Positions 20,035 to 38,532 of a stretch of 49,376 nucleotides of DNA are shown here, one piece after another. The notes beneath the pieces are model-generated. The model had not been told where the DNA came from. It did no database searches and saw nothing but the letters and a program-made list of their open reading frames with translations. The first letter of the stretch is position 1. Each line of letters begins with the position of its first letter. Source of the stretch: Thermincola carboxydiphila (lineage in GTDB: Bacteria; Bacillota; Thermincolia; Thermincolales; UBA2595); NCBI GenBank assembly GCA_016841325.1, contig JAENZJ010000023.1, positions 1 to 49,376 of the forward strand, given 5' to 3'. A program made the translations under genes and the position numbers.

Positions 20035-21747
20035 CTACATTGAAAGGCACTTATCGGTATATGACGGCACCCCTTTACCTAACCCGTACGGCAGTGCCGG
20101 AGCGGCAGCCAAAAGTCTTCGGGTATAGGGATGCCCGGGAGAAGAAATAACCGCACCGGTGGGCCCGTCCTCTATGATGTAACCGTCTTTGAGCACAACA
20201 ATCCTGTCACTGACCTTCCTGGCCAGGGCAATATCATGGGTTATGAAAATTATGCCTAAACCCCTTTTTTCCTGAAGATTGAGGAACAGTTTAAGGATTT
20301 TTGCCTGGACACTGGGGTCCAGGGCCGATGTTGGTTCATCGGCTATGAGCAGTTTGGGTTCCAGGACCAGGGCCCTGGCAATTGCCACCCTCTGGGCCTC
20401 TCCGCCGCTAAGGTGGTGTGGGTATATCTTCAGGAATTCATCATCTGAAGGGAGTTCAACCTCATCCAGCACTCTTTTGACTATTTCCTTTTTCTCTGCG
20501 GGACTGCCTATCCGGTGAATTTCCAGTGGTTCACTGACGGCTTCCAGCACATTCTGGCGGTGGCTGATGGATTCTGCAGGGTTCTGATATATCATCTGGA
20601 CTTTCCTGTAGAAATCCCTGCCTCTTTTCCCGACCAGGACCCCTTCCAGATAAACCTCCCCTTCACACTGCCTTTGGAGTCCCATCACCGTCCGGGCCAG
20701 TGTCGTTTTTCCCGAACCACTCTCACCAACCAGGGCCACAGTTTCTCCCTCAAAAACAGTGATCCCGGCCCGGTTCAGGGCCCTGACACGCCCGAAGGCG
20801 GCGCTTAATTCGCACGTTTTCAGCAGTGGTACAATCCCCCCGCGGTGACAGGCAACCATCCTTCGGGTTTCTTTACCTGTCTCCCTGAGTTCAGGAACCG
20901 CCTCTTTGCATACATCAATCCCCTGTGTACAGCGGGGCTCAAATGGACATCCCCGTTTAGGCCTGGACAGTCTCCCGGGAATCCCCTGGAGGTCTTTGGT
21001 GCCGTTTATATCAGGATAGGAACGGATCAGTCCCCGTGTATACGGGTGTCCCGGGTCTGACAAGAGGGTCCCGGTGGGCCCTGTCTCTACAATTCTCCCT
21101 CCGTAAAGGACTGCGGTCCGGTCTGCCAGCCTGGAGGCAGCAGCCAGGTCATGGGTTAGTGCCAAAAGGGTACACTTTTTCCTTATTTCCCTGAGCAGTT
21201 GAATTATTTCTTCCTTTGTTACCGGGTCAAGGGCTGAAGTGGGTTCGTCCAGTATCAATACCTCAGGGTCATTTGCCAGGGCCATGGCTATCAGGGCCCG
21301 CTGCTTCTGCCCGCCGCTTAGCTGGTGCGGATATAAAAGAAAATGTGCAGTGGAAAGCCCCACTTTCTTCAGCAGGTCACCGGCTTTTGACCGCGCTTCC
21401 CGCGGGCTGTGTAAACCGTGTTCAATCATTGGCTCAGCTACCTGTTCCAGGATATTAAAAAGCGGGTTTAAAGCGCTTTCCACATTTTGAAAAACCATCG
21501 CTATCCTATTCCACCTGATGCGTGCCATTTCTTCCGGGTCCATTGCAAGCAGGTTTTGCCCCCGGTACCTGACGTCTCCGGAATAAGACCCGTCTCCCAG
21601 GCCGATAATACTTTTGGCCAGGGTTGTCTTTCCGGTGCCTGACTCCCCTATCAGGACAAGGGATTCCCCCCTGTGAAGGGTGAAACTGACATTATTCAGG
21701 ATAAGGTTTTTACCGTACCTTACCGACAGGTTTTTCAGACTAAGCAT
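20035..21747 (-). CDS. Fused oligopeptide/nickel ABC transporter ATPase (DppD-DppF type)
   Basis: A 570-aa protein with two complete ABC ATPase domains that are separate genes in most systems. NBD1 has GESGTGKTT, LSGGQKQR and LILDEPTSALDP. Its end carries the OppD/DppD C-terminal Cys-rich stretch (CPFEPRC...C...C), which can hold an Fe-S cluster. NBD2 has GESGSGKTT, LSGGEAQR and LIADEPTSALDP. SD GGAGGG precedes ATG. It overlaps the permease gene by 8 bp. Substrate class: peptides, nickel or a related small molecule. Confidence 0.9.
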   Translation of the reverse strand: MLSLKNLSVRYGKNLILNNVSFTLHRGESLVLIGESGTGKTTLAKSIIGLGDGSYSGDVRYRGQNLLAMDPEEMARIRWNRIAMVFQNVESALNPLFNILEQVAEPMIEHGLHSPREARSKAGDLLKKVGLSTAHFLLYPHQLSGGQKQRALIAMALANDPEVLILDEPTSALDPVTKEEIIQLLREIRKKCTLLALTHDLAAASRLADRTAVLYGGRIVETGPTGTLLSDPGHPYTRGLIRSYPDINGTKDLQGIPGRLSRPKRGCPFEPRCTQGIDVCKEAVPELRETGKETRRMVACHRGGIVPLLKTCELSAAFGRVRALNRAGITVFEGETVALVGESGSGKTTLARTVMGLQRQCEGEVYLEGVLVGKRGRDFYRKVQMIYQNPAESISHRQNVLEAVSEPLEIHRIGSPAEKKEIVKRVLDEVELPSDDEFLKIYPHHLSGGEAQRVAIARALVLEPKLLIADEPTSALDPSVQAKILKLFLNLQEKRGLGIIFITHDIALARKVSDRIVVLKDGYIIEDGPTGAVISSPGHPYTRRLLAAAPALPYGLGKGVPSYTDKCLSM

Positions 21748-22585
21748 GCTTTTCCCTCCTCAGTCTGGGGTCCATAGCCTCTTCCAGTGAATAACCTATC
21801 AGGGTAAATGACATCACTGTCAGTGACAGGGCTATACCCACAGGAAGCAGCCACCACTGCCATACATCAAGGTATACGTACTTCAGGGCGTGATAAAGCA
21901 TTTTTCCCCAGCTCACGGTCATCGGGTCAGTAATCCCGAGAAAGGAGAGCCCTGCTTCCATAAAAACGGCACGCCGTGCCCCCCTGATTAAATTTGCTGT
22001 CAGTACCGGACCAAGGTCAGGAATGATGTGCCGTTTCAATATATAGAGCGGTCCGGCCCCAAAGGTGCGGGAGGCCCTGACATGCAGCTTTTCTTTCAGG
22101 GCCAGGGTCTGAGCCCTTATTATCCTCGCCCCTGCCGGCCACCCAAGCAGTGACAGCAATAAGACCAGGTGGATCATCCCCGGCTGGATGTAAGCGGCCG
22201 CGATAATTACCACCAACATTGGCGGGATCACCAAAAAGGCATCAACCAGGCGCATCATCATTTTTTCATAAAGTCCGCCAATTAACCCGGCAGACGCTCC
22301 GGCAGCCAGGCTCAACATGGTGGCCAGAATAGCCACCACCAGTGCCGTTGCCAGTGATGTCCGGGCCCCATACAACAGACGTGACAGGATATCCTGGCCG
22401 ACATCATTGGTCCCCAGCGGGTGCTGCGCTGACGGGGATTCCAGGGAATCCGGCGTCTGTGTAAAAGGGTCATCAGGGGCCAGTACAGGCGCCAAAAGAG
22501 CTGTCCCCGCCACCAGGACCAGAATTATCATTCCGATTCTTCCTAAACTGTTGTTTCTAATTTCCTGCCAGTAGTTGATATGCAT
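21740..22585 (-). CDS. Family-5 ABC transporter permease (DppC type)
   Basis: A 281-aa inner-membrane permease. HPLGTNDVGQDILSRLLYGARTSL is the DppC/OppC N-terminal signature, about six membrane segments follow, and the EAA-loop region around RASRTFGAGPLYILKRHIIPD contacts the ATPase. It is encoded directly after the DppB-type partner, overlapping it, and before the fused ATPase. Confidence 0.9.
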   Translation of the reverse strand: MHINYWQEIRNNSLGRIGMIILVLVAGTALLAPVLAPDDPFTQTPDSLESPSAQHPLGTNDVGQDILSRLLYGARTSLATALVVAILATMLSLAAGASAGLIGGLYEKMMMRLVDAFLVIPPMLVVIIAAAYIQPGMIHLVLLLSLLGWPAGARIIRAQTLALKEKLHVRASRTFGAGPLYILKRHIIPDLGPVLTANLIRGARRAVFMEAGLSFLGITDPMTVSWGKMLYHALKYVYLDVWQWWLLPVGIALSLTVMSFTLIGYSLEEAMDPRLRREKHA

Positions 22586-23547
22586 GGTCTCAACCTCGGA
22601 TCAATTTTTTTGTAGAGAACTTCTACGAATAAATTAGTAACCAGTACCGTGACGGTAACCACCAGAAAGACGCCCTGCAGCAGGGGATAGTCCCTGGCCT
22701 GCAAACCTTTCTGAATCAGGAGTCCCAGCCCGGGATAGGAGAAAACCGTCTCAATAAACAAGGCCCCTGTCACCATTCTGCCAAACTGTATCCCGATATG
22801 AGTGATGACAGGGAACAGGGAATTCCGTCCGGCATGACGGTAACTGACCACCCTCTCCCGGAGTCCTTTGGCCCTGGCGGTAAAAATATATGACTCCCCC
22901 AAAATACTCACCATGGTGTTCCGCGCCAGCAGAAATGTCCCTCCCAGATTGACCAGGGCTAAGGAAGATGCCGGCAGGATAAGGTGTCTGAGAATATCCT
23001 GCACCAGAGCCAGGCCTGTATAACCGGCATATGGAGTCATCGCCCCTGCCAGTGGAAGTACCTTCAGGACCACCCCAAATACAATTAACATAATCATCCC
23101 GATAAAAAAGTCAGGGAACCCTTCCAAAAACATAATTCCTGCCAGCAGCGCCCTGTCAGTCCGTTTCCCGCGTCTCCAGCCTGACTCCATTCCTGCAATG
23201 CTCCCTGCCAGGGCAGAAATCAGTATTGCCGTTCCCACCAGCAGCAGGGTCCATGGGACAGCCCTGAAGACCACTGCTGAAACAGTATCATTAAAATAGT
23301 AGGAATAACCCAAATCCCCCCTGAGCAGGGCGGAGCAGTATTCCAAAAACTGCTCCCCCAGGGACCGGTCCAGGGCAAACCTCTGAATCAGTTCTTCCTG
23401 GGCGTCAGGAGTCATGTGGACCAGGGCCTCTTCCCCATAAATAGCTGTCAGCGGGTCTCCCGGCATCAGGCGGGGGAGAAAGAAATTGACTGCCAGGATA
23501 ATCAGAAATGCCGCTAAATAATTGGCAGAATCCCTTAATCTAAACAC
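22543..23547 (-). CDS. Family-5 ABC transporter permease (DppB type)
   Basis: A 334-aa permease with the classic DppB start (LAVNFFLPRLMPGDPLTAI), the family's large N-terminal periplasmic segment and the conserved GRMVTGALFIETVFSYPGLG. I choose GTG 23547 behind SD AGGGGG; the 11-codon longer ATG form has no SD. It begins 39 bp after the binding-protein stop and overlaps the DppC-type gene by 43 bp. Confidence 0.88.
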   Translation of the reverse strand: MFRLRDSANYLAAFLIILAVNFFLPRLMPGDPLTAIYGEEALVHMTPDAQEELIQRFALDRSLGEQFLEYCSALLRGDLGYSYYFNDTVSAVVFRAVPWTLLLVGTAILISALAGSIAGMESGWRRGKRTDRALLAGIMFLEGFPDFFIGMIMLIVFGVVLKVLPLAGAMTPYAGYTGLALVQDILRHLILPASSLALVNLGGTFLLARNTMVSILGESYIFTARAKGLRERVVSYRHAGRNSLFPVITHIGIQFGRMVTGALFIETVFSYPGLGLLIQKGLQARDYPLLQGVFLVVTVTVLVTNLFVEVLYKKIDPRLRPCISTTGRKLETTV

Positions 23548-23586
23548 TGCCCTGCCCCCTTTACCAATACAACTTAACATGTTAAA

Positions 23587-25212
23587 CTACATTATGAATG
23601 CGGCCTTGTTCAGGAGCAGCGGTATCCCATAACTGATGCCATTGGGGGTATTGTAGAATTTAACTTTTCCGTCATGGGCATAGTACCAGTCAGGATAATA
23701 CAGGGGGAGGAAAGGCAATTCCCCGGCCAAAAGCTCCTGGATTCTCCTGACAATTACCTCACGTTCCCCCGGATCAAGAACAGTAAGCTGTTTCCCTAGC
23801 AAACCGGTTAGTTCCTTATTGGCATCATACCTGGCGCTGATAAATGTTTGGCCGAGAACAATCTTATTCAGAATTTCGGCATCCCCTCCAATACTCCCGT
23901 TTCCGGACAGGGCAAGGTCAAACTTCCAGTCACTCACCAGTGCATCCAGGGTTTTTGACTCCAGGCTTTTCAGGTTAACTCTGATACCCGTCTTCTCCAA
24001 CTGTTGTCTGATGAACTGTCCCTCCCTCTCAAATTCCGGGGTAATCAGCATCTCCAGGGCCAGCTCCTGACCGTTTTTGGTATAATAGCCATTCTCCAGG
24101 CGGTAGCCCTGAGCGGTTAACAGTTCTGCGGCCTTTTCAGGGTTGCAGCTGTACTTTTCCACTCCCTGATTATACCACCGGGAATCAGGAGACAGCAGAC
24201 CAGGACTGCCTGCCAGGGCATATCCCCTCTTGGCATTATTAACCAACCCTTCACGGTCTATAGCTAAGGCCAGGGCATGCCTTATTTCCTTTGTGGATAA
24301 GGGTTCTTTCCTGTGATTGAACATCAGTTTCAGGACCCAGTCATACCTTGTCTTGATGACCTCAAGTTCGCCTGACAGGCGGTCGTTCATCTCGGGAGGA
24401 ATCTGGGCAAAATTGACCTCACCCCGTTCCAGAGCAGCCGGAGACATCTCGTTGCCGATTTTGACAAACCTGAGTTTTAATACCCGCGGCTGTCCCAGGT
24501 AATATTCCCGGTTGGCCTCATATAGATAGGTACCGTGTTCCCTGCTGTAATCCAGCAGCCTGTAAGGTCCGGTCCCGACAACCGCTTCCGGCCCGGTAAA
24601 CTCCTGTGGATTGGCAACTGCCTTCCAGATATGTTCCGGAAGGATGGGCAGGGCTCCGGCAATATTGTTTAGAAAAGGGGCGTACTTTTCTTTGAGGTAA
24701 ATCTTCACCCTGTAATCATCAATCACTTCAACACCGGAAACCCGGGAACAATCCACCAGGTCATAAGGGTGCTCCTTTATATATGTAAACGTGAAGGCAA
24801 TATCTTTGGCTGAAAATTTTTGCCCGTCATGCCATTTCACATTTTTATTAAGTTCAAAGGTGTAAGAGTTCTCCTCCGGGTTATAACCCCATTTTGCTGC
24901 CAGACCCGGTATCAGTCCTTTTTCATCCTTCCACACCAGGGTGTCAAATATCAGGCTCATCCTGATGTAACCCGGACCACGCCGGTAATGGGTATATGGA
25001 GACGGGTACCCCCAGTCACCGGAAGGGTCAGCTATCGTGTATACAGGTATTATCCCTGGTTTTCCGTTAATCGTGTCTGCCGGCTTTTTAGAAACACCTG
25101 CCTGTTTCTCACCACACCCGGTTGTAATTAATCCGGCTGCACCCATGGTTGCTAAAAAAAGAAGCATAAGAAACATAAATTTCCCTTTTTTTAAAAATAA
25201 CCGCCTATCCAT
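23587..25212 (-). CDS. Extracellular solute-binding protein, family 5 (lipoprotein)
   Basis: A 541-aa SBP5 protein. The signal peptide ends in a lipobox (LITTGC), so the mature protein is lipid-anchored outside. SLIFDTLVWKDEKGLIPGLAAKW and NVKWHDGQKFSAKDIAFTF are the SBP5 signature blocks, followed by GTGPYRLLDY and the HALALAIDREGL region. I start at ATG 25212, behind GAGGTG, rather than at an upstream TTG. It is the first gene of its operon, behind a structured leader. Proximity to the B12 operon does not prove a corrinoid or metal substrate. Confidence 0.88.
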   Translation of the reverse strand: MDRRLFLKKGKFMFLMLLFLATMGAAGLITTGCGEKQAGVSKKPADTINGKPGIIPVYTIADPSGDWGYPSPYTHYRRGPGYIRMSLIFDTLVWKDEKGLIPGLAAKWGYNPEENSYTFELNKNVKWHDGQKFSAKDIAFTFTYIKEHPYDLVDCSRVSGVEVIDDYRVKIYLKEKYAPFLNNIAGALPILPEHIWKAVANPQEFTGPEAVVGTGPYRLLDYSREHGTYLYEANREYYLGQPRVLKLRFVKIGNEMSPAALERGEVNFAQIPPEMNDRLSGELEVIKTRYDWVLKLMFNHRKEPLSTKEIRHALALAIDREGLVNNAKRGYALAGSPGLLSPDSRWYNQGVEKYSCNPEKAAELLTAQGYRLENGYYTKNGQELALEMLITPEFEREGQFIRQQLEKTGIRVNLKSLESKTLDALVSDWKFDLALSGNGSIGGDAEILNKIVLGQTFISARYDANKELTGLLGKQLTVLDPGEREVIVRRIQELLAGELPFLPLYYPDWYYAHDGKVKFYNTPNGISYGIPLLLNKAAFIM

Positions 25213-25250
25213 GTGATAACACCTCTTCAAATATTAATTGAATAATCAAC

Positions 25251-25303
25251 AAATAAAAAAACCATGAGAAATCATGCCGGTTCATCCGGCCTGACCTTCA
25301 TGG
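25251..25303 (-). terminator. Attenuator hairpin in the leader of the family-5 ABC operon
   Basis: On the minus strand CCATGA...TCATGG encloses GCCGG/CCGGC and is followed by seven T. It lies about 40 bp before the binding-protein start, so it must be bypassed for expression. Upstream, hairpins AGACA/TGTCT and CCTG/CAGG and a TCGT/ACGA pair form a leader of about 100 nt (25304-25375). No known riboswitch class is recognised. Confidence 0.7.
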
Positions 25304-25401
25304 TCGTTATCCTGAAGTATACAGGTTAATGGTTATCTGACGAGACACCTTCCTGATGTCTGCATTTTCTTACCCTATTAACCTCATATATATTTGGTTG
25401 T

Positions 25402-31806: not shown

Positions 31807-34800
31807 TTACCTGAGTCTAAGAACATTATTTATTACTACCGCTGCTTGAGCCCTTGTCGTTGGCTGAGCGGGATAAAAACGGTTATCTCCCATACCGTTG
31901 ACAATTTTATTCGCAACAGCCCAGTCAACAGCTGTCTTACTCCAAGATGCAATCTCCTTGTTGTCTTTAAATCCTGTTTCAGCACTCTCTGCATGTTTAA
32001 CCTTTAATGCATCCAGATAATTCCTGGCATTCATCAAAATTGTTACCATTTCCTGCCTAGAAATCTTTTGCATAGGCCTAAATGTTCCGTCAGGATAACC
32101 GGAAACCAATCCTCTGTCTATTGCCTGCTTGACATATGGTGTATACCATTCATCGTCAGGCAGGTCGGTAAGTGTTTGCTTCTCCCCTGCACTGTTGGTG
32201 ATTTCCAAAGCATTGACCAGCATCTTCACGAACTCTGCCCTGGTAACATTGCGTTCCGGATCAAACCTTTCCTGACCTACTCCTACAACTATCCCTCTCT
32301 GAACCAGACTTTTCATCGCTTCTTCTGCCCACTTATGGCTTTCCATATCAGAGAATTTGGTTTCCCGACAGAAAACAGCATATTTACTGAAATGCTGCAA
32401 TGCTCCTGTTATTTCTCCGTTAGCTAAATCCATAACTGCCGGAACCTTAACCCACTCCTGATTGTCTTCATCATACCATGCCATGTAGACGTCAAACGGC
32501 GATTGTCCCGGAGGAACGATTGCCTTTAAGGTCACAAATACATTATCATCAAATACCAATCCGCTAGGGCCAAATTCATAAACTGGTGTTAATAATTTAT
32601 CCCGATCAGCGGAGTCACTGCCGTTATCTGTTGCAGTATCTGTTGCGGACAACTTCTTTAAATTTATCCTTACAGATTTCTTCATTGCTGTTTCAGGTAT
32701 TTCCAGCCGAATCTCTTTCCTTTTATCCTGCAGAGTAACTTTATCTCCCGGATTCACAGGAAATTCTTCATCCAATTCGTTTTCTTTAATAACAGTCAAC
32801 CAATATGCTACTTCTTCATTTGTAAGTGTTCTGCCAACCCCAAAAACCGGTATATCATTTGTGGACAGTCCACTAAATTTATTGTCTTGCAGATATTTTT
32901 GGGCCTCTTCGGATATCTTCTCCCTAATTTCTGCTTCCTCACGGCTAATCTCAGGGGGAGTATCCATATCTACAAGTTTTTCTGCATTAAATCCACCCTC
33001 ATTAGCATCGTTAACCCAAAGCCAAACCACTTCATCTCCATCTTCAAGGGTGAAGTCGTTACATGCAAGGCCCGGCCTGTCGCCATTTACTTCCCAAACC
33101 CATCCTGCTGTTCCCCGCAAATCTTCGGCCACCCCGTCAATTGAACTCACATAGGCTTCATCAAATTTTGTCGTAAAGGAAAGACCTGTTTTGGCGAGAG
33201 CACCCAAAGGAGTCATTCCGAATTCGTCGTCATCGTTGACTGTTATTCTACGTTTGCTAAGAACCGTCACACCATTTTTGCCTGTGACTGTTATGTAAAC
33301 CGAAACAGAATCGTAATCTACCTGCCCCCCTGAGTCCTGTGAACCTCCTAATTCGCCAGTGCCTTCTGCATTAAACTGTTTACTGAACATACTAAAAACT
33401 GTAAGTGCATTAGCAGTTGCCGTCAATTCACTTATTTTGCCGTCTTCGCCTTGTTGATTTACCAGATAACTGAGCATTTCCCCACTCGGTTTAAGCCAGT
33501 CATCTTGTAGCGGATTAATTTCCAATTCCAATAATGCCCTGGCAACCTCTATTGTTGAATAGGGATTACTTTCTTTACTATTAGGAAGATACTTAAATCC
33601 CCCATCAATTCGCTGCATAGTTTTCAGCCAATCCAAAGCTTTCTGGATATATTGAGAGTCTTTTGGTTCCCCTAGATCATGCAGGGCAATAACAGCCTCC
33701 GCGGTAATATCACTGCTGCTATCCGCCCCCTCTTGATAACCCCAACTCCCGTCTTCCTTTTGTTGGTCGAGAATCCACTGTTTGGCCTGTTCAGCTTGTG
33801 TTATGGGTTCTCCTGCCTCGTTCAATGCCCTTATAGTCCACAGGTGAGTAGAAAAGATATCAAACAACCCATTCCCGTCATTGTTCAATTCATCTATTAA
33901 GTTACGTCCTTCAAAATCGGTAGGATCCTGACCACAAACCGCCAAAGTTAAAATCATTTTCACCAGGTCACTGGTTGAACTAGGTTCATAACCTGCCAGA
34001 TAATCAAAATAGGTTAAACCGTTTTTAGTATATTCTTCACTTAATAAATCTTCGCCTGCCTCTACGAGGGCCATAGCTCCCCACAATGAGAGGTCTCCAT
34101 TGTCTTCTTGTTGATTGCGAATATAGGTTATAGCCTCTTCCTTAGCTTGATTAATGATTTCATCAGTAACCCGTTCCTCAGGAAATAACGATACCTCTGA
34201 AGTAGTGGTTAATCCTTCTAAACCGCTATCAGATATACCGGTAAGAGTCAAAATGTAGTTTTGCTCGTTGACATTTTCAAATATTAGAGTAAACTTATTA
34301 TTAATTACATCGTCTGTTACATTACAAATTTCAATACTGTCAGTAGTTTCAAGAATTCCATTTATCGTGGCAGCATTGCTCACACTGCCCGTTACTGTCA
34401 GCAACTTTAAATCCTTATCATAATCTTCAAGGCTAAAACTTGGGGCGGTCGGAAGATCAATTGAAGGCTCTCCAGGATTTGATAATTCGTTTACTATGTC
34501 TACCGTTATTGGCATAGGTCTTACCATTAACGGTTTTCCTGTCGGTACACTCGTTTCATCCCTTTTCTCCGCAGTTAACTGCACTGGACCAGCTTCAGAA
34601 GATGCCGTAAATCTGGCTTCACCGGAAGCATCAGTTACATCATAATCTTCACCACAGTATACTGTCGCTCCAACCACAGCAGCATTATCACCTGCTATGT
34701 CTACCAGTTTCACCGCAAACTCTTCTCCAGCCACAACTTCTTCAGGTGCTTCCAGTTTTGTCAGTGGAGTCGGTGGATCCCAAGTCCCATAGTAGTAGAC

Positions 34801-35757
34801 CACCTCATCATTATCACTAAGAGGACCGTATTCCTCCACAATTCCATTATTTACGGTATAGCTTAACCAGCCATTCCAGTCACCCTCATAAAGACCAGTT
34901 TCCTCTCCACCAATTGATGTAACAAATCCCCCGTCCGCAACAACATCCACATTTCCCTCCGCCGCTGTCACTAAAGCATCTGCCGGATAACTGCCAGCCG
35001 GTACCTCCACATTTGTATCCAATAATGTAGAGTCTATCCCTTCGACACGTACATGTACAGTCGGATTTATAACATTCATACTTGCCGGGAGTGGTCTTAC
35101 TATTAACGGTTTTCCTGTCGGTACACTCGTTTCATCCCTTTTCTCTGCAGTTAACTGCACTGGACCAGCTTCAGAAGGCGCTGTAAATCTGGCTTCACCG
35201 GAAGCATCAGTTACATCATAATCTTCACCACAGTATACTGTCGCTCCAACCACAGCAGCATTATCACCTGCTATGTCTACCAGTTTCACCGCAAACTCTT
35301 CTCCAGCCACAACTTCTTCAGGTGCTTCCAGTTTTGTCAGTGGAGTCGGTGGATCCCAAGTCCCATAGTAGTAGACCACCTCATCATTATCACTAAGAGG
35401 ACCGTATTCCTCCACAATTCCATTATTTACGGTATAGCTTAACCAGCCATTCCAGTCACCCTCATAAAGACCAGTTTCCTCTCCACCAATTGATGTAACA
35501 AATCCCCCGTCCGCAACAACATCCACATTTCCCTCCGCCGCTGTCACTAAAGCATCTGCCGGATAACTGCCAGCCGGTACCTCCACATTTGTATCCAATA
35601 ATGTAGAGTCTATTCCTTCAACACGTACATGTACGTTAATGCTTTCAGCAGCATAAGTAGTTGGTATAACTGGTATAAAGCCTATCAAAATGGCCACTAA
35701 TGTCAGCAAATTCATAATTTTTAACTTTCGAATATGTCTCCGTTTAAGGGTATGCAT
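31807..35757 (-). CDS. SLH-anchored multidomain transcobalamin-like surface protein
   Basis: A 1316-aa secreted protein. Domains in order: signal peptide (1-37); DUF4430 plus Ig-like repeat 1 (42-222); near-identical repeat 2 (234-413); an Ig-like linker; an alpha/alpha toroid (about 527-796, with WILDQQKEDGSWGYQ and DGGFKYLP); a third, divergent DUF4430 (about 812-919, GWVWEVNGDRPGLACND); a ZU5-like beta domain (about 1010-1130); three SLH domains (about 1136-1316). A barrel followed by DUF4430 is the domain order of transcobalamin and intrinsic factor. I start at ATG 35757, behind AAGGAGAG and after the riboswitch terminator; the longer reading frame runs into the riboswitch. First gene of the operon. 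Confidence 0.87.
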   Translation of the reverse strand: MHTLKRRHIRKLKIMNLLTLVAILIGFIPVIPTTYAAESINVHVRVEGIDSTLLDTNVEVPAGSYPADALVTAAEGNVDVVADGGFVTSIGGEETGLYEGDWNGWLSYTVNNGIVEEYGPLSDNDEVVYYYGTWDPPTPLTKLEAPEEVVAGEEFAVKLVDIAGDNAAVVGATVYCGEDYDVTDASGEARFTAPSEAGPVQLTAEKRDETSVPTGKPLIVRPLPASMNVINPTVHVRVEGIDSTLLDTNVEVPAGSYPADALVTAAEGNVDVVADGGFVTSIGGEETGLYEGDWNGWLSYTVNNGIVEEYGPLSDNDEVVYYYGTWDPPTPLTKLEAPEEVVAGEEFAVKLVDIAGDNAAVVGATVYCGEDYDVTDASGEARFTASSEAGPVQLTAEKRDETSVPTGKPLMVRPMPITVDIVNELSNPGEPSIDLPTAPSFSLEDYDKDLKLLTVTGSVSNAATINGILETTDSIEICNVTDDVINNKFTLIFENVNEQNYILTLTGISDSGLEGLTTTSEVSLFPEERVTDEIINQAKEEAITYIRNQQEDNGDLSLWGAMALVEAGEDLLSEEYTKNGLTYFDYLAGYEPSSTSDLVKMILTLAVCGQDPTDFEGRNLIDELNNDGNGLFDIFSTHLWTIRALNEAGEPITQAEQAKQWILDQQKEDGSWGYQEGADSSSDITAEAVIALHDLGEPKDSQYIQKALDWLKTMQRIDGGFKYLPNSKESNPYSTIEVARALLELEINPLQDDWLKPSGEMLSYLVNQQGEDGKISELTATANALTVFSMFSKQFNAEGTGELGGSQDSGGQVDYDSVSVYITVTGKNGVTVLSKRRITVNDDDEFGMTPLGALAKTGLSFTTKFDEAYVSSIDGVAEDLRGTAGWVWEVNGDRPGLACNDFTLEDGDEVVWLWVNDANEGGFNAEKLVDMDTPPEISREEAEIREKISEEAQKYLQDNKFSGLSTNDIPVFGVGRTLTNEEVAYWLTVIKENELDEEFPVNPGDKVTLQDKRKEIRLEIPETAMKKSVRINLKKLSATDTATDNGSDSADRDKLLTPVYEFGPSGLVFDDNVFVTLKAIVPPGQSPFDVYMAWYDEDNQEWVKVPAVMDLANGEITGALQHFSKYAVFCRETKFSDMESHKWAEEAMKSLVQRGIVVGVGQERFDPERNVTRAEFVKMLVNALEITNSAGEKQTLTDLPDDEWYTPYVKQAIDRGLVSGYPDGTFRPMQKISRQEMVTILMNARNYLDALKVKHAESAETGFKDNKEIASWSKTAVDWAVANKIVNGMGDNRFYPAQPTTRAQAAVVINNVLRLR
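34517..35058. repeat. 542-bp coding repeat, copy 2
   Basis: Second copy of an in-frame duplication with a 576-bp period (192 codons), coding for the DUF4430-Ig pair. About seven differences from copy 1 are countable by eye. Confidence 0.95.
35093..35634. repeat. 542-bp coding repeat, copy 1
   Basis: First copy, at the N-terminus of the mature protein. The 34-bp linker between the copies (35059-35092) is not repeated. The very high identity at synonymous sites indicates a recent duplication or gene conversion. Confidence 0.95.
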
Positions 35758-35782
35758 AGTTAAATCTCTCCTTAGTGTCATA

Positions 35783-35816
35783 ATACAAAAATCTCCCCAC
35801 ACAACTATGGAGAGAT
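35783..35816 (-). terminator. Expression-platform terminator of cobalamin riboswitch A
   Basis: ATCTCTCC/GGGGAGAT form an 8-bp stem (35791-35816) followed by TTTTTGTAT on the minus strand, just before the SD of the surface-protein gene. Confidence 0.85.
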
Positions 35817-35873
35817 TATAACAGGTATCCTTATACCCCACCTCCCCCATCCGTCGTGGGTCCAGTGAATCTG

Positions 35874-36043
35874 GAACAAGCAGGTCTCCTGACTCAGGTT
35901 CACCACCCCTCTGCGCCTTCCCGGAAAACTTCCAGTGGCATAATGCAGAGAGGCTCCCCAATACAGTGGCGGGACCGTGCCGGACTCACACCGGCTTCCC
36001 TTTTAAGCCCCCCTCCTGGCGGAGGTTAAGGCACTTATTCCGC
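35874..36043 (-). promoter_or_regulatory. Cobalamin riboswitch A (proximal)
   Basis: The minus strand shows the conserved blocks of the class in order: AAGTGCC, GGGAAGCCGGTG, GAGTCCGGCACGGTCCCGCC, CACTGT and AGTCAGGAGACCTGC. It lies downstream of riboswitch B and carries its own terminator. High cobalamin is expected to end transcription of the uptake operon. Confidence 0.95.
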
Positions 36044-36118: not shown

Positions 36119-36178
36119 CTAAAAATCAGGTATACTCATACTCCACCCCTCCCATCCTTCGTGGGTCAGTGAAATCAG

Positions 36179-36452: not shown

Positions 36453-36644
36453 TTACTCATTTTTTTCCAGAATGATCCTGTGGTTAACCAGGGCCATCTC
36501 TTTAATCCTTGCCCTGACCAGCTTCTGCTGTCCGAAAATATTTTCCAGCAGAATGCCGTCTTCACGCGGTACGACTTTATCCACACCCTCCAGGAGCAAC
36601 TCTTCAATACCGTCTTTTAAGATGTACGCATTTGCCTCACACAT
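36453..36644 (-). CDS. CooT-family nickel-binding-like small protein
   Basis: 63 aa, beginning MCEANAYIL. The Cys2 of the MCEA start is the nickel ligand known in CooT of Rhodospirillum. The rest (EDGILLENIFGQQKLVRARIKEM) matches the family's beta-barrel. SD GGAGGTGGG. It overlaps the DUF3842 gene by 8 bp and is last in the cbiM operon. In a cobalamin-controlled cobalt operon it may handle nickel or cobalt; the metal is not readable. Confidence 0.8.
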   Translation of the reverse strand: MCEANAYILKDGIEELLLEGVDKVVPREDGILLENIFGQQKLVRARIKEMALVNHRIILEKNE

Positions 36645-37062
36645 CTGTACCCACCTCCAAAATCTCCTTCACTTCATTTATCGCCGCCTCTACCAGGTGA
36701 GGCAGCGGTTCTTCCCTTGTCATAACAATTTTCACATTGCTTCTGGTCAATGGAAGTAATATTTTCTGTGCACTGCTTTGAGCTACGGCTTCGGCCATGG
36801 GGGCAGTAAATTCACCCATCATGGAATTTGCAATTATAATATTAATTGTACCGACAATCAGATCTGCTTTTGGCGTATTAAAAATAACTGCTGCTTCGCC
36901 GCTGGCCCCTTCATTGGCTCCGGCCTTTATCATCTGGGCCGCAGCCAGGGCATTTGTCCCCAGGGCAATTATCTCTGTATCCTCAGGAAGGTCTTTCCTG
37001 AGCCTTTCGACAATAACCCTTCCGATTCCTCCCCCCTGCCCGTCAATTACCGCAATTTTCAC
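36637..37062 (-). CDS. DUF3842 family protein
   Basis: 141 aa. The N-terminus MKIAVIDGQGGGIGR is a Rossmann-type nucleotide loop, and ADLIVGTINIIIANSMMGEFT is the other conserved block. The function is unknown. It starts at GTG overlapping the PDGLE gene by 4 bp and sits between metal-transport genes, so a role in metal or cofactor metabolism is a guess from context. Confidence 0.82.
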   Translation of the reverse strand: MKIAVIDGQGGGIGRVIVERLRKDLPEDTEIIALGTNALAAAQMIKAGANEGASGEAAVIFNTPKADLIVGTINIIIANSMMGEFTAPMAEAVAQSSAQKILLPLTRSNVKIVMTREEPLPHLVEAAINEVKEILEVGTDV

Positions 37063-37364
37063 TGACGGCCACCAACTCGGCGGGATTTGATGATATATAA
37101 TTTCCCAAACCCATACATTACAGCAAAAGTAATCAGGGTACCGGCCACACCGGCAAGGCTGCCGGCAACAGCCTCATTTTCCAATCCGGGCATAACATAA
37201 TCCGGCATAGGGGATTTAACCACTTCTTTTCCTTCACTGAGGTGTATAAACCCTTTGTCTTCAGCTACCCGTTCCAAACCGTCAGGGCTTGTGGAAGCAA
37301 AGGGAGAAAGAAAAGCCGCAATGGCCAGGGAAAACAGGAGAGCAAAAAAGATACCCTTTTTCAT
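37059..37364 (-). CDS. PDGLE-domain protein (CbiN-like accessory of the cobalt transporter)
   Basis: 101 aa with two membrane segments (about 5-25 and 70-90) and the extracytoplasmic motif SPDGLERVAEDKGF that defines the PDGLE family. This domain is often fused to CbiM or takes the place of CbiN in cobalt/nickel ECF systems. SD GAGGTG. It follows cbiM by 9 bp. Confidence 0.87.
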   Translation of the reverse strand: MKKGIFFALLFSLAIAAFLSPFASTSPDGLERVAEDKGFIHLSEGKEVVKSPMPDYVMPGLENEAVAGSLAGVAGTLITFAVMYGFGKLYIIKSRRVGGRQ

Positions 37365-37373
37365 ATTATCACC

Positions 37374-38012
37374 TCATGCCTTCTGATTTTGGAAAACCAG
37401 TTCAGATTTAACCTGGGTAAGATAGGCCACCACAACTGATGTTATCAGGCCTTCACCGATCCCAATCAACACATGCCATCCCAACATGGCCGGAAGGGCG
37501 ATATTCAGGGCTACATGGCCTGAAAATACAATCAGCAGGGTGCCTACAACCGAGGCCGCAATTGTGGAAAGCCAGCTGGCCAGAAATGTTGACCCCAGTA
37601 CCCTGGTCCGGTTAGTAGAATTCCCGGCTGCCAGCCTGTAAACCCACCAGCCTACCCAGGGAGCCACAATTCCCATCAGCAGAATATTTCCCCCCAGTGC
37701 TGTCAGGCCACCATCCAGGAAAACCAGACATTGAATTATCAGCACTGTTGTCATTATCAGGACAGCGCTCCACGGTCCCAGCAAAATGGCCGCCAGGGCC
37801 GCCCCCAAAAGATGTCCCGAGGTACCACCGGCGATGGGGAAATTCACCATCTGGGCCGCAAAGATAAATGCGGCCATGACACTCATTTTAGGTATCTGCC
37901 GGTCATCAAAAACCTTTTTTGTCTTAGCCACCGCCACACCTACCAGCGGGACACTTGCTGCCACTGATGCGGCAATCATCTTCGTATCAAGGAAACCATC
38001 CGGAATATGCAT
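37374..38012 (-). CDS. cbiM: Cobalt/nickel ECF transporter substrate-specific subunit CbiM
   Basis: A 212-aa, seven-segment membrane protein starting MHIPDGFLD; the N-terminal Met-His2 loop inserts into the protein to coordinate the metal in CbiM/NikM. MVNFPIAGGTSGHLLGAALAAILLGPW carries the other conserved His. SD GGAGGTG. It is first in the operon cbiM-PDGLE-DUF3842-cooT, behind a cobalamin riboswitch, which argues for cobalt. No cbiQ or cbiO follows; those at 12991-14621 probably supply the energy module. Confidence 0.92.
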   Translation of the reverse strand: MHIPDGFLDTKMIAASVAASVPLVGVAVAKTKKVFDDRQIPKMSVMAAFIFAAQMVNFPIAGGTSGHLLGAALAAILLGPWSAVLIMTTVLIIQCLVFLDGGLTALGGNILLMGIVAPWVGWWVYRLAAGNSTNRTRVLGSTFLASWLSTIAASVVGTLLIVFSGHVALNIALPAMLGWHVLIGIGEGLITSVVVAYLTQVKSELVFQNQKA

Positions 38013-38084
38013 ACTTACACCTCCGCAAATTTAAATATCTGTTTGGAATGATAATTACCGGCTGCTTCTAACCCCGATTTTCAG

Positions 38085-38140
38085 CAAAATAAAAAACCAC
38101 AAACACGGGATTGCTTCAGCAAACCTCCCGACCTTCGTGG
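38085..38140 (-). terminator. Attenuator/terminator hairpin before cbiM
   Basis: The minus strand has CCAC...GTGG enclosing CGGGA/TCCCG and TTTGCTGAAGCAA, followed by TTTTTTATTTT, about 75 bp before cbiM. It would stop transcripts from the promoter at 38274 and from riboswitch C unless bypassed. Confidence 0.75.
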
Positions 38141-38221
38141 CCTTAGTTTATAATCTATTGTTTGAGCCTTTCCTTAAAACTACCTTGAGTTCAAAAGTTG
38201 CTTCCAGCCTTCACACCAAAA

Positions 38222-38268
38222 CACCGTAACATGCATTCTGCATGTATCGGCAGCTTCTGCTACCGGTG
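38222..38268 (-). ncRNA. Three-way-junction leader RNA element upstream of cbiM
   Basis: P1 is CACCG/CGGTG, P2 is GGTAGC-AGAA-GCTGCC and P3 is ACATGCA-GAA-TGCATGT. All pairs are perfect but for one wobble. P1 begins at about +6 of the promoter at 38274-38302, so it forms the 5' end of the transcript. About 80 nt of further leader (38141-38221) link it to the terminator at 38085. It matches no riboswitch class I know. Confidence 0.5.
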
Positions 38269-38273
38269 ACTAT

Positions 38274-38302
38274 ATTATACTAAATATATGTTTCTATATC
38301 AA
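38274..38302 (-). promoter_or_regulatory. Second promoter of the cbiM operon
   Basis: -35 TTGATA (38297-38302), 17 bp, -10 TATAAT (38274-38279). It lies downstream of riboswitch C and its terminator, so it bypasses that control. Confidence 0.75.
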
Positions 38303-38355
38303 CAGAAAAATTCCTGCAACATTCTGATAATTTCCGGGCAAAGGCAAAAAAAGTG

Positions 38356-38375
38356 GTAGAATATAGCTATTCTAC
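38356..38375. promoter_or_regulatory. Inverted repeat upstream of the second cbiM promoter
   Basis: GTAGAATA and TATTCTAC flank TAGC. It is centred about 65 bp upstream of the -35 hexamer at 38297. Protein binding site or chance; no family is assigned. A further palindrome CCTTCC/GGAAGG lies at 38403-38418. Confidence 0.35.
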
Positions 38376-38444
38376 CGGATTAGAGAATGGGTTTAACAAT
38401 AACCTTCCTTAAGGAAGGAGATTGGCTTGGCAGCTTTTCTTTAC

Positions 38445-38474
38445 CAAAATAAAAATCCCCGCACAGCGAGGATT
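38445..38474 (-). terminator. Expression-platform terminator of cobalamin riboswitch C
   Basis: AATCCTCGC, loop TGT, GCGGGGATT (9 bp), then TTTTATTTT on the minus strand. Confidence 0.85.
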
Positions 38475-38532
38475 GTAACATTTGGTATACATTAACATAC
38501 CATGCCTTTCCTCGAAGGCCTCAGGCTCACAA

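Follow-up and report, generated by a model that had tools for sequence, protein, structure and literature searches.

A predicted, widespread leader element with mutually exclusive helices and repeated (A)NGAA hairpins before nickel and cobalt genes of Bacillota: a probable antitermination switch

The window analysed here is the whole 49,376-nucleotide stretch of Thermincola carboxydiphila DNA (GenBank assembly GCA_016841325.1, contig JAENZJ010000023.1). Its minus strand carries an operon that starts with cbiM, followed by genes for a PDGLE-domain protein (CbiN-like), a DUF3842 protein and CooT (Table 1). Upstream of cbiM lies a genuine cobalamin riboswitch, "riboswitch C", with its own terminator. 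Between them and cbiM no obvious gene is found; cobalamin and the element described below may therefore both control cbiM. Downstream of riboswitch C and ahead of the cbiM promoter lies a further conserved RNA-like block (38440-38355, minus strand), which reads AUCUCCUUCC-loop-GGAAGG...GUUAAACCCAUUCUCUAAUCYGGUAGAA...UUCUACCACUUUUUUU and is nearly identical at six loci (L007, L008, L010, L012, L028, and L107). This block possesses an anti-Shine-Dalgarno-like CUCCUUCC and a terminator of its own, has no Rfam match at gathering score, and may be a small RNA. In genome G003 (locus L012), a cobalamin riboswitch, the block and the element follow each other in the same order before cooT. Two tandem cobalamin riboswitches (36354-35862, minus strand) precede a large ORF (31807-35961).

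Table 1. Coordinates of the cbiM leader, its operon and the second copy of the element in the window.
Feature	Position	Strand	Basis
Cobalamin riboswitch C	38700-38520; terminator 38474-38454	-	Rfam match
Promoter of the cbiM leader, TTGATA-17-TATAAT	38274..38302	-	11/12 consensus positions
HP1, CGGUAGC-AGAA-GCUGCCG, NGAA tetraloop, at the transcript start	38248..38265	-	AGAA loop invariant in 7 aligned leaders
HP2, ACAUGC-AGAAU-GCAUGU, hairpin of HP1-like type	38229..38245	-	
Tentative weak third hairpin, AAGGA loop, 24 nt 5' of P2	38165..38181	-	
P2, GGCC-ACGAA-GGUC, putative antiterminator hairpin inside the terminator 5' arm	38130..38142	-	pairing and covariation
T, terminator stem that excludes P2	38097..38144	-	-24.5 kcal/mol vs -4.5 for P2
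U-run of terminator T	38086..38096	-	sequence
cbiM (PF01891), first gene of the operon	37374..38012 (start 38012)	-	Pfam E 6.9e-63
PDGLE-domain protein (CbiN-like)	37059..37364	-	PF13190 E 2.9e-19
DUF3842 protein	36637..37062	-	PF12953 E 1.7e-54
cooT, nickel-binding protein family, candidate trans factor	36453..36644	-	PF10133 E 5.4e-26
Second-copy HP1, AGACAUC-AGGAA-GGUGUCU	25343..25361	-	
Second-copy P2, GACC-AUGAA-GGUC	25293..25305	-	R2 E 4.6e-8
Second-copy terminator, followed by a U-run	25262..25305	-	-25.3 kcal/mol
Oligopeptide/nickel-type ABC transporter operon after the second copy	20035..25230	-	first gene SBP_bac_5 E 5e-67; ORF map

A sequence-only reading had described a near-perfect promoter after riboswitch C, a transcript starting with perfect stems, and an intrinsic terminator guarding cbiM. 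These features are confirmed on the minus strand, and the named stems are those of HP1 and HP2. The spacing had been given as 130 nt; the terminator begins ~78 nt past the end of the 5' structure and ~120 nt past the likely start site. The TATAAT directly 5' of HP1 is also retained in the aligned leaders of relatives, one of which displays UAUGC-AGAA-GCAUA at the position of HP2. The AAGGA loop of the tentative third hairpin is present in just 2 non-redundant leaders. The 183-nt leader folds better than its shuffles (z -2.5; -3.7 for the hairpin segment alone), and no near-identical second copy of it was found in the organism's own genome. Between 37990 and 38520, the Rfam 15 covariance models yield no match at gathering score besides riboswitch C. 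The cobalamin model RF00174 has three matches in the window, none over 38085-38302, and none at E<=10 in 37990-38520. The suggestion of a separate attenuator leader linked to Ni/Co uptake, outside the NiCo and every other Rfam family, thus held.

The same reading had placed the functional core in a three-way junction formed by the 5' stems, with an ordinary terminator downstream. In the source organism, this junction is the most stable fold of the 49-nt 5' end of the leader taken alone (-19.9 kcal/mol versus -16.8 for the two hairpins alone), and with added 3' sequence the minimum is HP1 and HP2 without the closing stem. The latter, CACCG/CGGTG, overlaps HP1, is weakened to UACCG/CUGUG in two same-genus leaders, and was not seen in the folds of leaders from other genera. 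Homologous leaders do not conserve the junction; they are kept as (A)NGAA loops and the terminator 5' arm. Because the conserved information lies in the loops and this arm, the supposedly ordinary terminator was part of the element, and a junction-centred regulatory RNA is very improbable. The first interpretation is therefore partly supported: it saw a real regulatory leader and named the wrong part as its core.

Among relatives of the same family, the terminator is the best conserved part and the junction less so; in the 7 aligned leaders, CCACGAAGGU in the terminator 5' arm is invariant. Terminators of different genera within the family are 84-91% identical, as would be expected if they were ordinary constitutive intrinsic terminators alike through recent descent. 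A covariance model of the terminator (R1), run together with a motif scan of fetched neighbourhoods, retrieved divergent members, located upstream of a methyltransferase gene, of DUF3842 and, in another family, of cbiM. In these members, CCAYGAAGGU is constant and the middle and 3' arm of the terminator vary. The 18 sequences assembled have a nearly invariant 5' arm and diverging middle and 3' arm, which argues against recent descent, as does recurrence of the element before non-orthologous operons, phylum-wide and with up to 13 copies per genome.

The constant arm folds alone as a small hairpin, P2 (NNCC-AYGAA-GGNN), whose loop type matches that of the upstream hairpins (ANGAA, or NGAA). P2 and T use the same bases, so only one of the two helices can form. 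Across the 18 sequences, 100% of the P2 cells are paired, with GC, GU, and AU exchange, and T displays a C-G to U-A exchange in 8 of them. Further instances were collected with a second covariance model, R2; as it comprises the T pairs alone, it does not impose P2 covariation on this new set. Among 98 non-redundant instances, the P2 pairs -1, -2, and -3 exceed 5000 shuffles, with 0, 0, and 1 of these reaching the observed count (the shuffles ignore relatedness), and the pairs from -4 outward do not rise above shuffling. As the signal ends before -4, the P2 stem usually has about 5 pairs. A terminator has no need of such covariation, and that an ordinary one should account for the element is hardly credible. 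The P2 loops of 120 elements are ACGAA (66), AUGAA (51), AAGAA (2), and AGGAA (1), and the (A)NGAA hairpins are mostly closed by C-G. The mean energies are -5.5 kcal/mol for P2 and -26.3 for T, and T is complete a median of 33 nt after P2. P2 being far weaker, it wins only if it is held while the polymerase moves on. What comparison shows is a widespread predicted element, located before Ni/Co genes, in which exclusive P2 and T helices are combined with repeated (A)NGAA hairpins.

The upstream (A)NGAA hairpins are real. At least one, with at least 4 pairs and up to 200 nt upstream, is present in 69 of the 120 leaders, versus 20 in a reversed-sequence control. When hairpins with at least 5 Watson-Crick pairs were counted upstream of P2 regardless of their loops, the commonest pentaloops were AUGAA, AAGAA, ACGAA, and AGGAA (29/94), and the commonest tetraloops UGAA, AGAA, and CGAA (18/63). 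Some of the hairpins counted may be tandem copies of P2. Tandem elements occur at L026 (about 3900 and 3987) and L107 (4095 and 4207); the second L026 copy pairs CCAUGAAGGUUCGC...GCGACUUUCAGG without a U-run, perhaps in a different control mode. About half of the non-redundant instances have no (A)NGAA hairpin within 150 nt upstream, which counts against a common recognition system. The distance between upstream hairpin and P2 ranges from 5 to >100 nt, with clusters near 5-10, 52-58, and 100 nt, and reaches 88 and 107 nt in the cbiM leader. This spacing is loose for one bound complex and speaks against the explanation favoured below.

R2 matches are found in 10 of 10 genomes of the source organism's class, one of which has up to 16 at E<=1; these include weak matches and matches lying opposite a stronger one on the other strand. 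In an even sample of the phylum, 112 of 398 genomes have matches at E<=0.01, with up to 13 per genome, and 55 genomes, from more than 20 families by our count, pass E 1e-5; these E-values are rough, the model having been calibrated briefly. A strict family pattern run over 84,980 genomes matched only Thermincola ferriacetica-labelled MAGs, 3 Bacillota/Firmicutes MAGs, and one chance sequence. Viral contigs gave no match to the element pattern and no relative of a CooT-like query. Several candidates were dismissed as chance: pattern-scan match L041 (Gemmatimonadetes), with a G+C-rich flank and no U-run; weak R1 matches in coding DNA, such as L052 and L053, the latter judged by eye to be a glutamine-synthetase-like frame; and the resemblance that CCACGAAGG...GGGAGG bears to the tail of the cobalamin riboswitch and to the stretch after the riboswitch at 36165, which neither R1 nor R2 retrieved. 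In every place tested, Rfam 15 returned no match over the element at gathering score, the PyrR and T-box families included along with NiCo, guanidine-II, and HMP-PP. Matches above this score near elements were cobalamin riboswitches, tRNAs, and one Moco riboswitch outside the element. At L273, a Moco/tungsten riboswitch (RF01055, 1788-1902, minus strand) lies ~240 nt upstream of the element (about 1548), and the next long ORF resembles an iron-only hydrogenase-type protein. No report of the element was found in a literature search confined largely to freely available papers.

The window itself holds a second copy, before an oligopeptide/nickel-type ABC transporter operon. In a survey of Pfam matches of the first ORFs downstream of 92 elements, the most frequent were SBP_bac_5 (19), CbiM (15), methyltransferase domains (7), and FmdE (6), followed by PDGLE, oligo_HPY, and the ECF transporter S component (5 each), by DUF3842, TrmO, and DUF4198 (3 each), and by CooT and the [FeFe]-hydrogenase large subunit (2 each); CobN and the heavy-metal-chelation family DUF364 also occur. 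As judged from these family assignments, the downstream gene set is mainly one of Ni/Co acquisition. DUF3842, DUF4198, PDGLE, some ECF S components, and a class I methyltransferase would thereby be grouped as one metal-linked set. ECF S components of ~185-190 residues follow the element at L207, L222, L254 (PF12822), and L265, which suggests a metal or metal-cofactor as their substrate.

The cbiM leader is probably, though by no means surely, an antitermination switch in which the (A)NGAA hairpins and P2 act as one recognition system, held by a factor and turned on at Ni/Co scarcity. HP1 and HP2, near the transcript start, would form this system with the like hairpin P2. By default, the stronger T would form, and cbiM, the PDGLE/CbiN-like gene, the DUF3842 gene, and cooT would be off. 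When Ni or Co is scarce, the factor would become active, recognise the (A)NGAA loops, and keep P2 folded until the polymerase has passed, allowing the operon to be read. We infer the binding of a trans factor, its protein nature, and the metal-scarcity trigger; the direction of the switch, on when metal is scarce, is deduced from gene function.

If the leader were a true riboswitch, its NGAA hairpins or its terminator hairpin would themselves bind Ni2+, Co2+, or a metabolite that contains a metal, and this binding would shift the P2/T choice. The NiCo (czcD) riboswitch is associated with Ni/Co-related genes in Bacillota, and is a four-way junction before efflux genes; the element has no NiCo match at Rfam gathering score, and displays tandem hairpins before uptake genes instead. 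Guanidine-II (mini-ykkC) riboswitches possess two small hairpins with matching ACGR loops, whereas the element, again without an Rfam match to this family, has ANGAA loops and one of its hairpins is part of the terminator. The nearly constant P2 loop, the metal-specific downstream gene set, and the fact that neither CooT nor ANTAR proteins are universal among carrier genomes would all suit a riboswitch. An aptamer embedded in the terminator also has a precedent in the HMP-PP (thiS) riboswitch (PMC6478431), although the element has no Rfam match to it and differs in sequence, genes, and repeated hairpins. However, short hairpins with the same loop, in 2 to 4 copies at very variable spacing, resemble protein sites rather than one aptamer pocket, and comparison across families revealed neither an internal loop nor a junction that is conserved. 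Direct ligand sensing by the RNA is accordingly judged unlikely.

The factor-held switch has its closest parallel in ANTAR antitermination, in which an upstream hairpin is accompanied by a P2 hairpin within the terminator, and this second hairpin is stabilised (PMC3369931, PMC8934654). The element resembles the ANTAR targets of EutV/eut, NasR/nasF, and AmiR/amiE in its small upstream hairpin, its second hairpin embedded in, and overlapping, an intrinsic terminator, and a loop signature common to both; a conserved G, third from the 3' side of the loop, is also found in both. By analogy, it may work as an ANTAR target does, although it does not fit that class in its loops, its linker, or the ANTAR content of its carriers. 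ANTAR targets have hexaloops with A1 and G4 (PMC3369931), whereas none of the P2 loops in 120 elements is of this kind and the upstream loops are mostly ANGAA or NGAA. Their linker in eut is 5-12 nt, and altering it harms EutV; the element has no short fixed linker, its spacing being free (5 to >100 nt). ANTAR targets precede nitrogen genes, and the element precedes Ni/Co genes. An ANTAR-domain antiterminator acting on tandem hairpins with shortened loops could still be invoked, given that all 10 genomes of the class encode ANTAR proteins (5 in the source organism's own), as do 47 of the 55 strong element genomes versus 148 of 343 others. At E<=1e-6, however, none is found in four carriers of one family (G340, G297, G380, and G180), two of which are single-contig genomes, 99% complete. 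These ANTAR-free carriers already weaken the ANTAR reading, which is decidedly improbable. One canonical hexaloop pair was seen near ANTAR genes, and it is doubtful.

For the antitermination switch favoured here, CooT is the leading, if unproven, candidate for the loop-binding factor. It is found in 51 of the 55 strong element genomes versus 67 of 343 others, with an odds ratio of 52 as compared with 7.7 for ANTAR proteins, both from counts that ignore phylogeny. The 7-kDa, nickel-binding CooT dimer is classed as an accessory protein of CO dehydrogenase. Its family, PF10133, was named RNA_bind_2 in earlier Pfam versions; CooT itself is not known as an RNA-binding protein. A tentative possibility is that CooT is a nickel-sensing RNA-binding antiterminator that would hold the NGAA hairpins when nickel-free and would thus control Ni/Co uptake in many anaerobic Bacillota. 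Were the sensor to be a protein, of whatever identity, the small group of established RNA-binding antiterminators would gain a metal-responsive one. CooT is itself a controlled gene, is absent from two near-complete element carriers (G015 and G011), and is present in 34 genomes without any element match by model. The association may therefore reflect shared physiology, with CooT and the element perhaps having no more in common than their service to nickel enzymes. The CooT of the window retains Cys2 and has 6fan as its nearest solved chain (E 4.2e-20). The fold predicted from 4 sequences (pLDDT 89.7) agrees with the CooT structures 6fan and 5n76, and all further matches are weak (ATP synthase epsilon, Z 5.1; RimM C-terminal domain, Z <=4.6); this model does not decide on RNA binding.

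NikR is present in fewer than half of the organisms having NikABCDE (PMC2667541), and regulation without NikR has therefore been an open question. In many families of anaerobic Bacillota, the element may explain how Ni/Co uptake genes are regulated where the customary nickel repressor is lacking, and it would define a regulon, and a mechanism open to test, for anaerobes relying on nickel enzymes. In nine genomes (G308, G192, G371, G139, G068, G329, G351, G390, and G106), the open frame holding the CooT match spans 266-328 codons. These long frames may be fusions to another domain, and the partner could hint at CooT function.
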